DNA from: Proteus appendicitidis
GTDB lineage: Bacteria > Pseudomonadota > Gammaproteobacteria > Enterobacterales > Enterobacteriaceae
Reading direction: 5' to 3'
NCBI RefSeq assembly: GCF_030271835.1
Contig: NZ_CP127389.1
Location: forward strand, 2,082,001 to 2,146,000
DNA: 64,000 nucleotides
A program made the translations under genes and the position numbers. Positions 9,257 to 14,119 of this stretch are shown in pieces; positions within the stretch are counted from its first letter, which is position 1; every line of letters starts with the position of its first letter. The notes beneath the pieces were generated by a model. It made no database searches, had not been told where the DNA came from, and saw nothing but the letters and a program-made list of their open reading frames with translations.

Positions 9257-9412
9257 TCATATTCTGCCAGGTTTACGTAACGCTCTACGAAAGTAAGAAA
9301 CTGGCATTTTAGGACAAATTTGTTCTTTTACTGCTGGATTATTTTCCAAATCATCTTTATCTATTTCATTATTTCTTCTTGAATTTTGTAGCTGAGTATC
9401 TGTTTTATTCAT
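9257..9412 (-). CDS. small ORF (51 aa) coupled to the PadR regulator gene
   Basis: An open frame of 51 codons, starting MNKTDTQLQNSRRNN and ending FRRALRKPGRI. Its ATG (9412-9410) overlaps the stop of the PadR-family gene by 8 bases, and a strong ribosome-binding site (GGAAAGGG) stands just ahead, inside the 3' end of that gene. These features support translation. The C-terminus is strongly basic and one Cys is present. I do not recognise a family. If real it is the second gene of the regulator's operon. Confidence 0.5.
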   Translation of the reverse strand: MNKTDTQLQNSRRNNEIDKDDLENNPAVKEQICPKMPVSYFRRALRKPGRI

Positions 9413-10316
9413 CTTCCCTTTCCTCTGAGATCAATGCCTCATTGATAGCTTCAATTTTCTCAACTGCTTCATTAAGAATAGAAGCAATACGTCCTGCTTT
9501 TTCCACCGAAAGCTCTTTTAACACTAATTTATGGCGTAAAACTGCTTTTAATTTACCAACAGCAGATTCAATTTCCTCAGAAACACCACCTGCGTTTTGA
9601 GATAAATCTCTCGCATAAGCCAGTTTTCTTTGAATATTGGCATCTATATCTTGATGTTCTGCTAAAAATGCAGTGCCTTCAGATGTAATGCTGTAGCTTT
9701 TACGACCTTTTTCAGCAATCGTAGCAACTAATAGATCTTGCTCTTCAAGTAGTGTTAGCGTTGGATAAATAACACCAGGGCTAGGTACATATAATCCTGA
9801 AGAAGCCTCATCTATTTCTTTGATAATTTCATAGCCATGACTTGGTTTTTTCGAGATCATGCTAAGTAACAGAACGCGTAAATCACCATGATCAAACATA
9901 CGTTTTAACTGGCGACCTTGACCTTTACCTCTGCCACCGCACCCACGGCCACGTTGGTTTCCGTGCTCGCCAGAACCATGTTCACCATGACGACATTCGC
10001 CACGGCCTTCGTGTCCGCGACCATGTTCACCATGGCAGCATTCACCACGACCTTCGTGCCCGTGACCATGTTCACCATGGCGGCATTCGCCATGACCTTC
10101 GTGTCCATGACCATGTTCACCATGGCGGCATTCGCCATGACCTTCGTGTCCGTGACCATGTTCACCATGACAGCAATGCTCGCCATGATTTTCTTGGTGA
10201 CGACTATGTTTACCTTTACCACCACAGCGACCTCTTCCGTGACCATGTCCATGACTACCATGTTCGCCATCTTCAGCACGCTGTTGATAAAGTGAGTTTA
10301 ATGCTCGAATCATCAT
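9405..10316 (-). CDS. yqjI: PadR-family metal-responsive regulator with His-rich repeat arm (YqjI/NfeR-like)
   Basis: 303 residues. Residues about 138-303 form a PadR winged-helix domain (HGDLRVLLLSMISKKPSHGY, YVPSPGVIYPTLTLLEEQ) plus a C-terminal dimerisation helix, close to E. coli YqjI/NfeR, a nickel- and iron-linked repressor. The N-terminal arm (about 17-130) is rich in His, Gly, Cys and Glu and holds four 15-residue tandem repeats (residues 48-107, core HGEHGHGHEG), much longer than the E. coli arm. A His/Cys arm suggests metal binding. The E. coli partner nfeF (ferric reductase) is not adjacent. Three GATATATC operators and a Fur-like site lie upstream, so autorepression and iron control are likely. 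Confidence 0.88.
   Translation of the reverse strand: MMIRALNSLYQQRAEDGEHGSHGHGHGRGRCGGKGKHSRHQENHGEHCCHGEHGHGHEGHGECRHGEHGHGHEGHGECRHGEHGHGHEGRGECCHGEHGRGHEGRGECRHGEHGSGEHGNQRGRGCGGRGKGQGRQLKRMFDHGDLRVLLLSMISKKPSHGYEIIKEIDEASSGLYVPSPGVIYPTLTLLEEQDLLVATIAEKGRKSYSITSEGTAFLAEHQDIDANIQRKLAYARDLSQNAGGVSEEIESAVGKLKAVLRHKLVLKELSVEKAGRIASILNEAVEKIEAINEALISEEREDE
9975..10175. repeat. 45 bp in-frame tandem repeats encoding the His-rich arm
   Basis: About four and a half copies of a 45 bp unit, coding 15 residues each with the core HGEHGHGHEG[H/R]GE and a C-terminal Cys pair or Cys-Arg. Copies differ at a few codons. The unit length is a multiple of three, so slippage would change arm length without a frameshift. 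The repeats also keep other frames open, giving long false ORFs on both strands. Confidence 0.9.
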
Positions 10317-10741: not shown

Positions 10742-12580
10742 CTACTGGTCTAATGCGGATAAAACCACTTTCTTAATATATTGATATCCAGCTTCAATTT
10801 GTTGTTCATCACAGACCTCAGTACTTTTTATAGTAAGCTGCAACAAATTTAAGTGTTTGATGGTTTCCCACTCATTGCTATCAAAACCACACTCAGAACA
10901 AAACTGCGCTGGTGCATCATCACTATTACGAGCGCAAAGCGTTAATAAACTTAAATCTTGTTTATGATGACTTTTTATAACCAAGTTTTCATAGATTGTT
11001 TTATTAAGATCATTTTGCGTTTCTAAGTCCTTATTTCCTTTCTTTACTATCGCAAAATTTAGTTTATTAAAGTCAGATGCAGATAAAATACGAATATAAT
11101 AGCGCTCACCTTCTTTTTCGAAAGCTGCGGCTTGATTAAAAAACTGCTCAAGTTTGATACGCGTTTCCCATTGAATTTGTGCATATTTCCCATATCCAGA
11201 TGAAGTAAAAGGATAGAGTTGATGCACACTCCACATAGACGCCACTGCTGGTGCAGATTGAATACCATCAATTTCCGGAACATCGTCTGCTTGCTCTGGG
11301 CATAATCTAGGGGGATTTGTTAAAAAGCGACTAATACGCGCATCTTTAATACAGACTACACCTGTTGGATATGGTGAAAATCCAGCTTGAAACGGTTCAA
11401 AAGAGACTGAATCAGCGAGAGAAAGCTGTGTAATGCTTTCATATATTTCGGATGTTAATTCAAGTAATGGGGCTTCTTTCTTTAATTTTTCACACAAAAT
11501 CTGATAAGGGATAATTTCATAATTATCATCAAGAAATAAGCTTTTCATATAACCAAATTGCGATGCATCAATATGGATATAAAATGAATTGTTGTATTTT
11601 TCCTCACACTCTTTTCTTAGCTCAAAAAGTGGTTTTAACTTATCAACACAACCATAAGACGGTGCGCCTAATATTCCTATAACCCCAAGAATAGGCTCAC
11701 CTTGTTCAATCAGGCGAAAAACAATACTGCGTGTTTTTTCAATATCGGTTTTAAATGTTTCATCAATAGGCAATGCAATAAGGTTGTCATATCCCAACCC
11801 AAGTATATCCATTGCTTTTTTCCAAAATTCAAAACGGGAAACAGGAACAAGCAGTTTTCCTAAATGCATTGTTTTTGTCATGCCCGTTCCTCGGCATGTT
11901 AAATGACTTACATCATCAAAAATCCCGCGCTCATTGAGTTGTTCGCTTATGGCTAAAATATCTGTGACAGACATATTAAATAACTCAAAGGCTTTTTTAT
12001 CTGCAACCAAATCTCGTGATTTTGGATGACGAGCAATTGCCATTGGTAATGTTTTTAAATTTCTAAGCGCCCATAATATTTCATAGCAAGCAAGAGTATG
12101 GCTTGTTGTGATATGACCAAATGCATCTTTTGATGAGAAACCGATTAATTTACAGAGATCATCTGTAATTTTCTTTTCTTGTTCTTTTAGTAAGGGGGAA
12201 TGGTTATTAAAAACATTATCCGAGTTGTATGCTAATGCAGAAAGATAACCGAATTTCGCCAATTGCATCACTTGTGAATGATGATGGGAAAAATAAGGTT
12301 CAATATCAGATTGATTATAATTATTTTGCTGTTTTAAAGTCTCTAAAATACTTTCATAAGCATTATCTACTGCTTTTTTTTCAATAGCGTTACTTTTTAT
12401 TTTAGCGTCTAAACTCTCGCTATTATTTCTTTTCATTTTATTTGCTTTAGGAAAAGAATACTCACTATTCATTAGTATTTTTGCCATCTCTCGATGATAA
12501 CATGTAAGAGTATCAATGGTTCGGGTATGGTATACACGCTCTGCAGCACTCAGACAGGTTTGTTTGTGATTTGCCATCAT
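10742..12580 (-). CDS. group II PLP-decarboxylase homologue lacking the catalytic lysine
   Basis: 612 residues, collinear with bacterial tyrosine decarboxylase (about 620 residues): matching blocks include the N-terminal fold, PILGVIGILGAPSYGCVDKL, FYIHIDASQFGY, SVSFEPFQAGFSPYPTGVVC and ASMWSVHQLYPFTSSGYGKY. In active enzymes the fourth block reads DPHK, where Lys forms the Schiff base with PLP; here it is EPFQ, with Gln398 (codon 11387-11389) at the Lys position. The PLP-ring Asp (HIDA) is kept, the neighbouring AxYGG is not. The gene is intact and full length, so this is more likely a pseudoenzyme or repurposed protein than decay. No amino-acid antiporter is adjacent. AGGTG precedes the ATG. 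Confidence 0.75.
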   Translation of the reverse strand: MMANHKQTCLSAAERVYHTRTIDTLTCYHREMAKILMNSEYSFPKANKMKRNNSESLDAKIKSNAIEKKAVDNAYESILETLKQQNNYNQSDIEPYFSHHHSQVMQLAKFGYLSALAYNSDNVFNNHSPLLKEQEKKITDDLCKLIGFSSKDAFGHITTSHTLACYEILWALRNLKTLPMAIARHPKSRDLVADKKAFELFNMSVTDILAISEQLNERGIFDDVSHLTCRGTGMTKTMHLGKLLVPVSRFEFWKKAMDILGLGYDNLIALPIDETFKTDIEKTRSIVFRLIEQGEPILGVIGILGAPSYGCVDKLKPLFELRKECEEKYNNSFYIHIDASQFGYMKSLFLDDNYEIIPYQILCEKLKKEAPLLELTSEIYESITQLSLADSVSFEPFQAGFSPYPTGVVCIKDARISRFLTNPPRLCPEQADDVPEIDGIQSAPAVASMWSVHQLYPFTSSGYGKYAQIQWETRIKLEQFFNQAAAFEKEGERYYIRILSASDFNKLNFAIVKKGNKDLETQNDLNKTIYENLVIKSHHKQDLSLLTLCARNSDDAPAQFCSECGFDSNEWETIKHLNLLQLTIKSTEVCDEQQIEAGYQYIKKVVLSALDQ

Positions 12581-13093
12581 CGCACCTATATATAAATTTT
12601 TATTATCTGTTTTAATGAAATTTGTGTTTATTAATCGTCGATACTTAATCTTTATTCAAATGATATACCACATGATGAGTAAGAATCTTCTTTATTTTAT
12701 TGATATCAGTTAATATTTTTCTAATTTGATTTAAGCAAATGATATCTTAATGATAAATGATTTAGCTTTATTTGTTAGTTTCTTAAATTCACTATCAATT
12801 TTGATTTAAGTTATATTTCTGTAAATATGATATTATTTTTGCCAAGGTCAATACTTAAACCTACCTTAATCAGAATCAATGAATATTTCTATCGCTTAAC
12901 ATCTATAAAAAAGAATAGATATTAAATTACTTATCTAAAATAAAAATTTATTTATTTAAATGTTATTCATTTTTCCTTCAATACATAAAAAACACATAAA
13001 ATATTTAGTATGTATTTTTCGGAATATTCGCTTTTTAGAAAGGAAAAGAAGTGCTTACCTCTTATATCAAATAAGTTTTAAGCACTCTTATTT
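12581..13093. other. 513 bp AT-rich intergenic region
   Basis: Very AT-rich, with no convincing gene, RNA or terminator. It should contain the promoter of the decarboxylase homologue. The 3' end of the quinone oxidoreductase gene borders it. Confidence 0.5.
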
Positions 13094-14119
13094 TTACTCT
13101 TTTCCGTTATAAGATGGGATTTCAAGCATCACCTTACCAATTAAATCACCGGACTCCATTAACTGATGTGCTTTCCCTACTTCTTTTAATGGAAAAATAG
13201 CATTAATGATTGGTTTAATTTTTCCTTCAGCAATAAGTGGCCACACTTGCTGTTTTAATTCTTGTGCTATTTGCGCCTTCTCTTCTATTGAGCGAGATCG
13301 CATCGTGGAACCAGTATGAATTAAACGCTTAATCATCATTGGCATCATATTTAAATTTTTAGGCATTCCTTTCATCATACCCACTTGTATAACGCGCCCA
13401 AACTTGCTGGCAACTTGATAATTTTTTTCTACGTAATCCCCACCAATAATATCAAGAATAACATCAACGCCTTTCCCTTCAGTTAATATAGGAATTTCTT
13501 TAGCAAAATCGGCTTGTTTGTAATTGATGACATAATCAGCGCCGAGCGCGCGAGCCACGGTAGCTTTTTCTTCAGAGCCAACCGTTGTATAAACTGTCGC
13601 ACCAATTGTGTGAGCAAGCATGATGGCAGTTGATCCAATTCCCGATGTTCCGCCATGAATAAGAACAGATTCACCTTGTTTTAGTTTTCCTAACTGGAAT
13701 AAATTAGCCCAAACAGTAAATAAATTCTCAGGCAATGCCGCGGCTTCAATGTCCGTTAAATTCATTGACGGTAATGCTATGTCCTCATGGGCAATACAAT
13801 ATTGAGCGTAACCACCACCAGCAACTAAAGCACAGACTCTATCTCCCAATTGCCATTTAGTGCAGCCTTCCCCTAATGCGACAACCTCTCCGGCAACTTC
13901 AAGACCTGGAATAGGTGAAGCATCTGCTGGTGGCGGATAACTGCCTTGGCGTTGAAAAATATCCGGGCGATTAACACCAGAAGCTGCAACTTTGATCAAA
14001 AGATAATGTGGAGGAAGTAACGGTATCGGTGATAGTTGAGGTTGTAACTTATCTATACCACCTGGCTCTGTAATGGCAATTTCTAACATTTCCGCAGGTA
14101 AAACAGTTGCTTTCATCAT
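13094..14119 (-). CDS. NAD(P)H quinone oxidoreductase, zinc-independent MDR family
   Basis: 341 residues of the medium-chain dehydrogenase/reductase superfamily, resembling the PIG3/TP53I3-type quinone oxidoreductases. The N-terminal GroES-like domain has GVNRPDIFQRQGSYPPP and PGLEVAGEV; the Rossmann domain has the nucleotide-binding HGGTSGIGSTAIMLA and later VDVILDIIGGDY. The catalytic zinc ligands of alcohol dehydrogenases are absent. It likely reduces quinones or other electrophiles with NADPH in the cytoplasm. It follows the dms ferredoxin gene by 127 bp on the same strand and could be read through from it, but may have its own promoter. Confidence 0.85.
   Translation of the reverse strand: MMKATVLPAEMLEIAITEPGGIDKLQPQLSPIPLLPPHYLLIKVAASGVNRPDIFQRQGSYPPPADASPIPGLEVAGEVVALGEGCTKWQLGDRVCALVAGGGYAQYCIAHEDIALPSMNLTDIEAAALPENLFTVWANLFQLGKLKQGESVLIHGGTSGIGSTAIMLAHTIGATVYTTVGSEEKATVARALGADYVINYKQADFAKEIPILTEGKGVDVILDIIGGDYVEKNYQVASKFGRVIQVGMMKGMPKNLNMMPMMIKRLIHTGSTMRSRSIEEKAQIAQELKQQVWPLIAEGKIKPIINAIFPLKEVGKAHQLMESGDLIGKVMLEIPSYNGKE

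Follow-up and report, generated by a model that had tools for sequence, protein, structure and literature searches.

DisA of Proteus as a probable pseudoenzyme derived from a tyrosine decarboxylase and retained throughout the genus

The window analysed here, a stretch of 64,000 nucleotides from Proteus appendicitidis (contig NZ_CP127389.1, positions 2,082,001 to 2,146,000), lies in a genome of 4.1 Mb that consists of a single contig, and contains the gene of a decarboxylase-like protein in which the lysine that binds pyridoxal 5'-phosphate (PLP) is replaced by glutamine. By sequence and by its neighbours the open reading frame is Proteus DisA, the orthologue of the DisA protein (decarboxylase inhibitor of swarming) of P. 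mirabilis. Comparison with related enzymes gives good support to the view that DisA is a tyrosine decarboxylase turned into a conserved pseudoenzyme, and its sequence weighs strongly against catalysis. Positions below are those of the window.

10742..12580, minus strand: disA, 612 amino acids, frame intact; predicted pseudo-tyrosine decarboxylase, with PF21391 above and PF00282 just above the cut-off

The gene reads from 12580 down to 10742. A preceding sequence-only reading had given these coordinates and the intact frame correctly, without stating the strand, and had not recognised the protein as DisA. In a protein search the window protein showed 74% identity over the whole length to P. mirabilis P0007, which carries the NCBI name "swarming inhibition tyrosine decarboxylase DisA [Proteus mirabilis]". 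Ten relatives were obtained with identities of 69-96%, and all those with a species name belong to Proteus. Of the named species in the set of fetched loci, P. columbae comes closest (97%), although records very close to the window's genome may be excluded there. Compared with P. mirabilis DisA, the window gene is alike in the EPFQ block described below, in its neighbours and in overall sequence, with no material difference; what differs is the reading of the protein, which a literature title presents as an amino acid decarboxylase. An N-terminally truncated disA product of 355 amino acids, named for P. mirabilis (P0011), was also found in the database; it stands for a cluster of 21 sequences, which hints that some strains carry short disA alleles.

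Pfam searches clearly identified the tyrosine decarboxylase C-terminal domain (PF21391), and the PLP domain (PF00282) was barely over its cut-off. The best NCBIfam match was tyrosine decarboxylase TIGR03811, with a score of 277.8 compared to a cut-off of 905.3; two lysine-bearing relatives, one each from Providencia and Photorhabdus, also fell short, at about 650. A structure model and the domain searches demonstrated that the decarboxylase fold and the C-terminal domain are retained in DisA and, consistent with the sequence-only reading, that the length is kept. A disordered N-terminus specific to DisA is not claimed, as the control model of a Providencia protein was likewise weak in this part and over the catalytic loop; DisA was weaker over residues 33-64.

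For the analysis of the active site, DisA was aligned with the tyrosine decarboxylase of L. brevis (LbTDC), and residue roles were taken from excerpts of its structure paper (PMC4904194). The alignment comprised 99 loci, 31 from Proteus and 68 others, locus collection having kept the best 80 of 109 matches. The Proteus set consists of 20 loci from species genomes, including the window's own, and 11 named overlapping ones, and represents 20 distinct proteins. The following features were mapped by this alignment.

11387..11398, minus strand: EPFQ block, residues 395-398, with Gln398 at the PLP lysine Lys392, Glu395 at Asp389 and Phe397 at His391 of LbTDC
12098..12103, minus strand: Ser160-His161 replacing Gly-Gly of the PLP phosphate site, His161 at LbTDC G158
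11831..11833, minus strand: Phe250, replacing the PLP-ring-stacking His241
11549..11575, minus strand: HIDASQFGY block, residues 336-344, with the pyridine-nitrogen Asp338 kept and Tyr331 replaced by Gln341
11369..11371, minus strand: Tyr404 (LbTDC Y398), kept
11261..11263, minus strand: Ile440, replacing Ser440, a PLP phosphate contact from the other subunit
11063..11065, minus strand: Lys506, invariant in DisA, Met505 in the enzymes; position chosen in LbTDC as around the substrate pocket
10826..10828, minus strand: Lys585, invariant in DisA, Met588 in the enzymes; position chosen in LbTDC as around the substrate pocket

The exchange of DPHK for EPFQ, with Gln398 at the place of the PLP lysine, had already been noticed from the sequence and is confirmed here: the Gln398 codon (11389-11387, minus strand) aligns with Lys392, which is the Schiff-base lysine of the L. 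brevis enzyme according to the excerpts of PMC4904194. The number Lys392, which the sequence-only reading gave for the enterococcal enzyme, is consistent with the title of PDB entry 7cwz, the K392A mutant of enterococcal tyrosine decarboxylase in complex with PLP. At this position Gln was found in all 31 Proteus loci and Lys in 67 of the 68 non-Proteus loci, the remaining row (L059) being a short frame with a gap there. The decarboxylase frames of two Providencia loci, L059 and L090, are short as extracted (375 and 524 amino acids). The complete EPFQ block is likewise present in 31 out of 31 Proteus loci, far more than chance would explain, no lysine-bearing orthologue occurs among them, and a private mutation is thus ruled out. 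Even the database relative at 69% identity (P0010), which reads EPYQ, still has the Gln. In a separate survey covering 392 genomes of the family, 19 matches of full length were listed; the 14 proteins from outside Proteus all carried DPHK, and the five from Proteus all carried EPFQ.

The changes in the AxYGG and GST blocks, also seen in the sequence-only reading, correspond to HVDAAYGGY turned into HIDASQFGY and GST(E) turned into GAP(S). Beyond these we observed G158>H161, H241>F250, Y420>L426, S440>I440, the deletion of PRYxG (LbTDC 93-97), a segment that immediately precedes the substrate loop, and a catalytic loop that is ten residues shorter than in the Providencia protein. The exchanges G158>H, H241>F, Y331>Q, D389>E, H391>F, S440>I, M505>K and M588>K are fixed in all 31 Proteus rows. 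Two further ones are nearly fixed: T298>P (29/31, Ser in two) and Y420>L (27/31, Val in two and Ile in two), the latter replacing the catalytic-loop Tyr of the decarboxylase. Position 159 is Thr in 23 of 31 Proteus rows, the same as in most relatives. DisA resembles the bacterial tyrosine decarboxylases (LbTDC, 5hsi/5hsj; EfTDC, 7cwx; the relatives in Providencia and Moellerella) in fold, length, domain order and the pyridine-nitrogen Asp, but lacks the Schiff-base Lys, the stacking His, the catalytic Tyr and PRYxG, with the phosphate site altered and the catalytic loop shortened. In LbTDC, the activity of Y420A and Y420F was unmeasurable and most H241 mutants lost activity completely, as stated in the excerpts of PMC4904194. 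When only columns with at least 95% conservation across 66 non-Proteus rows were counted, DisA differed at 19 of the 24 active-site positions known from the literature, compared to 92 of the 186 remaining ones (one-sided Fisher test, p 0.005).

Loss of the active site would also be seen in a functionless, decaying remnant of a decarboxylase, and the fact that about half of the otherwise conserved positions have changed would suit such a remnant. Nevertheless, exactly one disA copy without internal stops was found in each of the 20 Proteus species genomes searched, and the median dN/dS was 0.086 (Nei-Gojobori, 152 pairs with dS 0.1-1.5). The gene is under purifying selection. Since the frames are intact and selected, and a swarming phenotype has been reported (by protein names and paper titles), pseudogene decay was rejected and appears extremely improbable. 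Among the 20 distinct DisA proteins 314 of the 612 positions are invariant.

The origin of disA is indicated by its chromosomal place, for which 18 loci (five from Proteus and 13 others) were compared with the window.

13094..14119, minus strand: PIG3-family quinone oxidoreductase, syntenic upstream neighbour
9405..10316, minus strand: PadR-like regulator, 303 amino acids, syntenic downstream neighbour; in Providencia its counterpart is separated from the decarboxylase by TyrP

The same oxidoreductase and PadR-like regulator flank the lysine-bearing relative in four Providencia loci (L054, L057, L065, L090) and in Moellerella (L049), so that these relatives occupy the same chromosomal place as disA but have the tyrosine transporter TyrP beside them. 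Two Photorhabdus loci (L036, L099) have the oxidoreductase side alone in common with the window, and two Xenorhabdus loci (L044, L068) share other nearby window genes. For the two Photobacterium loci, one Chromobacterium and one Iodobacter locus, any further matches were weak and to unrelated parts of the window. TyrP, assigned by NCBIfam equivalog for the three proteins tested, follows the decarboxylase gene (tdc) in Providencia, Moellerella and Photorhabdus, and was found beside it in 11/11 Providencia and 13/13 Photorhabdus loci as well as in the Moellerella loci. No TyrP was found at the disA locus of the window or in any of the 11 named Proteus loci; one TyrP is encoded elsewhere in the window's genome, so that the absence holds for the disA locus only. 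Nor is TyrP universal outside Proteus: 25 of the 68 non-Proteus loci, 17 of them Xenorhabdus by title and some of them short, show none, and in one (L062) of the 43 with a match it is not adjacent to tdc.

In trees DisA formed a single clade; the branch that connects it with the rest measures over 6 changes per column (4.2 + 2.5 on either side of the drawn root) and is saturated, whereas branches within Proteus did not exceed about 0.4. A tree of 30 rows (6 of the 20 distinct DisA proteins and 24 of the 65 others) grouped DisA with Providencia and Moellerella with weak support (66/42). Because of this weak attachment, the descent of DisA from the resident tdc rests on synteny. The simplest history is that tdc was changed in place in the Proteus ancestor and the adjoining transporter lost; the lysine in the relatives of other genera is as expected if the ancestor was an active enzyme.

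The PadR-like regulator (9405-10316, minus strand) itself carries an N-terminal stretch of His/Gly/Cys-rich repeats, encoded by a 45-bp tandem array (9975-10169, 4.3 copies). This repeat, absent from the 182-amino-acid Providencia counterpart (L054), possibly binds metal.

Inhibition of swarming and of class 2 flagellar genes by DisA is known solely from protein names and paper titles, and a gene for FlhD is present in the window's genome. FlhD4C2 is required for the class 2 flagellar genes, and the 2006 DisA paper of Stevenson and Rather reportedly placed the block after flhDC transcription. We consider it probable, taking the explanation as a whole, that DisA is a dead decarboxylase acting as a regulator that binds to the flagellar master-regulator pathway. 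DisA would be the catalytically inactive descendant of the chromosomal tyrosine decarboxylase of the Morganellaceae, altered in place in the Proteus ancestor, which kept the decarboxylase fold, lost the PLP chemistry and would now serve as a regulatory protein. Once expressed, possibly under Rcs control, it would bind a component of that pathway, most simply FlhD or FlhC, lowering the activity of FlhD4C2, and swarmer differentiation would be held back. We infer, in other words, a protein that would work without catalysis and through protein binding, with FlhD4C2 as its direct target and Rcs as its control. Judging from the sequence, DisA most likely acts by binding and not by amine production. 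Given a site that appears dead and an effect that can be transferred to E. coli, it is most economical to assume that DisA acts on FlhD4C2, or on the assembly of this complex, without catalysis, and by analogy a block in the fashion of RflP (YdiV) would be the likeliest form of such an action. RflP, a degenerate EAL protein of Salmonella, targets FlhD4C2 for proteolysis, and its level rises by way of sigma-24 and Rcs (PMC5930307). Both would be pseudoenzymes that lower flagellar gene expression, RflP being raised via Rcs and disA having an Rcs-like box, but the EAL fold and its ancestry are unrelated to the decarboxylase fold of DisA, and the contact between DisA and FlhD4C2 is proposed only.

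The Rcs-like box belongs to a conserved block upstream of disA.

12670..12693, minus strand: upstream block AAAGAAGATTCTTACTCATCATGT, conserved in Proteus, its first 14 bases (12680-12693) resembling an RcsAB box

These 14 bases differ at two positions from what we take to be the RcsAB-box consensus, and represent the only site in the window with at most two mismatches. They are identical in nine of the 11 named Proteus loci, with a difference of one base in the other two. At three mismatches 13 sites were found in the window compared to a mean of 11.1 expected, which is no excess over chance. In the region upstream of disA (12581-12820, minus strand), a block of about 43 bases that extends past the box is nearly unchanged in nine aligned Proteus loci. 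PMC9942566 cites Szostek and Rather 2013, among others, where it mentions that flagellar operons are derepressed in rcsB-mutant Serratia. Rcs control of both pseudoenzymes, DisA and RflP, is a lead and not a result.

Several observations weigh against a dead decarboxylase that acts by binding alone. D328 (Asp338), which binds the pyridine nitrogen, and Y398 (Tyr404) are retained in all 31 Proteus rows, and the changes extend to about half of the conserved positions outside the active site (the 92 of 186 given above). Some exchanges are mild: D389>E is conservative, and LbTDC H391A retained about 40% activity (PMC4904194, excerpts), so that not every change is fatal by itself. The complex of the K392A mutant with PLP in 7cwz means that an enzyme deprived of just this lysine may still bind PLP; in addition, Lys506 and Lys585, both new and invariant in DisA, lie around the old substrate pocket. 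A title in the reference list of PMC7142476 calls DisA an amino acid decarboxylase, and an excerpt of the same article describes phenethylamine as an inhibitor of swarming and of flhDC expression, which fits an amine-producing DisA. Together, the title, the two new lysines and the PLP complex of the K392A mutant could be taken to mean that DisA still catalyses, using another lysine or a route independent of PLP, and yields an amine signal such as phenethylamine. However, residues of the phosphate site, ring stacking and the catalytic loop are gone with the lysine, the segment beside the substrate loop is deleted, and TyrP is missing at the Proteus loci examined, which makes continued catalysis very unlikely. 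Of the two possibilities raised by the sequence-only reading, a pseudoenzyme is favoured by the genus-wide distribution, the purifying selection and the mostly changed PLP site, and a new chemistry found no positive evidence, though Lys506 and Lys585 leave it a remote possibility.

The retained Asp338 and Tyr404, the new lysines and the mapped pocket positions, 19 of 26 of which are invariant among DisA proteins, suggest that the pocket may bind some ligand. DisA could then be a ligand-sensing pseudoenzyme: its old site, with Lys506, Lys585, His161 and Phe250, would take up an anion, an amino acid or an amine (phenethylamine, for instance) without converting it, and this would switch the grip of DisA on the flagellar regulator. 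The two lysines in place of Met and the effect of phenethylamine on swarming (PMC7142476, excerpts) would agree with this, but the excess of pocket invariance is small (55% for the core) and the PRYxG segment beside the substrate loop has been deleted; we therefore regard ligand sensing as a tentative alternative. Slightly more tentative still is the specific version in which a ligand-gated DisA, its Lys506, Lys585 and His161 pocket sensing a small molecule, directly disarms FlhD4C2, in parallel to the independent EAL-domain case of the enterics.

Two further points against the proposed explanation concern other genes. Pseudoenzymes with a PLP fold, such as serine palmitoyltransferase subunit 1 and antizyme inhibitor, have lost the PLP lysine or the activity, kept the fold and taken on a regulatory role. 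Such proteins work alongside an active paralogue or take its place, whereas the sole other PF00282 gene found in the window's genome is distant, and no close disA paralogue that could be an active partner was found there. This distant protein (598 amino acids; L002 1171-2967, minus strand; genome C1:3455974-3457086) has kept the lysine (DFHKWGY) and could conceivably partner DisA as an active enzyme or supply amine itself. It stayed below every NCBIfam equivalog cut-off, with MfnA as best match (87.9 compared to 299.4), and an identification as PanP was dropped for this reason. Secondly, no EAL protein was found in the window's genome or in 17 of 20 Proteus genomes; as the same holds for 10 of the 14 genomes from other genera in which a lysine-bearing relative occurs, the lack is not specific to Proteus, and a missing RflP/YdiV as the reason for DisA was discarded for want of a specific link. 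In the other three Proteus genomes (G002, G011, G018; L133-L139) every EAL-domain match is on a contig different from C1, pointing to plasmids or another kind of mobile element.

The disA gene and its swarming phenotype are already known. DisA as a genus-wide pseudoenzyme without the lysine found no mention in the literature covered on DisA, Proteus swarming and tyrosine decarboxylase structures; the primary papers (Stevenson and Rather 2006; Stevenson 2013; Szostek and Rather 2013) lie outside that coverage and may remark on it. Swarming is a hallmark of Proteus, and the type of signal presumed for DisA is phenethylamine. If DisA cannot decarboxylate, the amine-signal model would be wrong, and attention would shift to a ligand that DisA binds or a protein on which it acts. 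DisA would then represent a clear bacterial case of a PLP enzyme turned into a regulator, while sister genera still carry a lysine-bearing relative at this locus, and, should the ligand-gated version be true, Proteus would have made a metabolic enzyme into a flagellar anti-activator.
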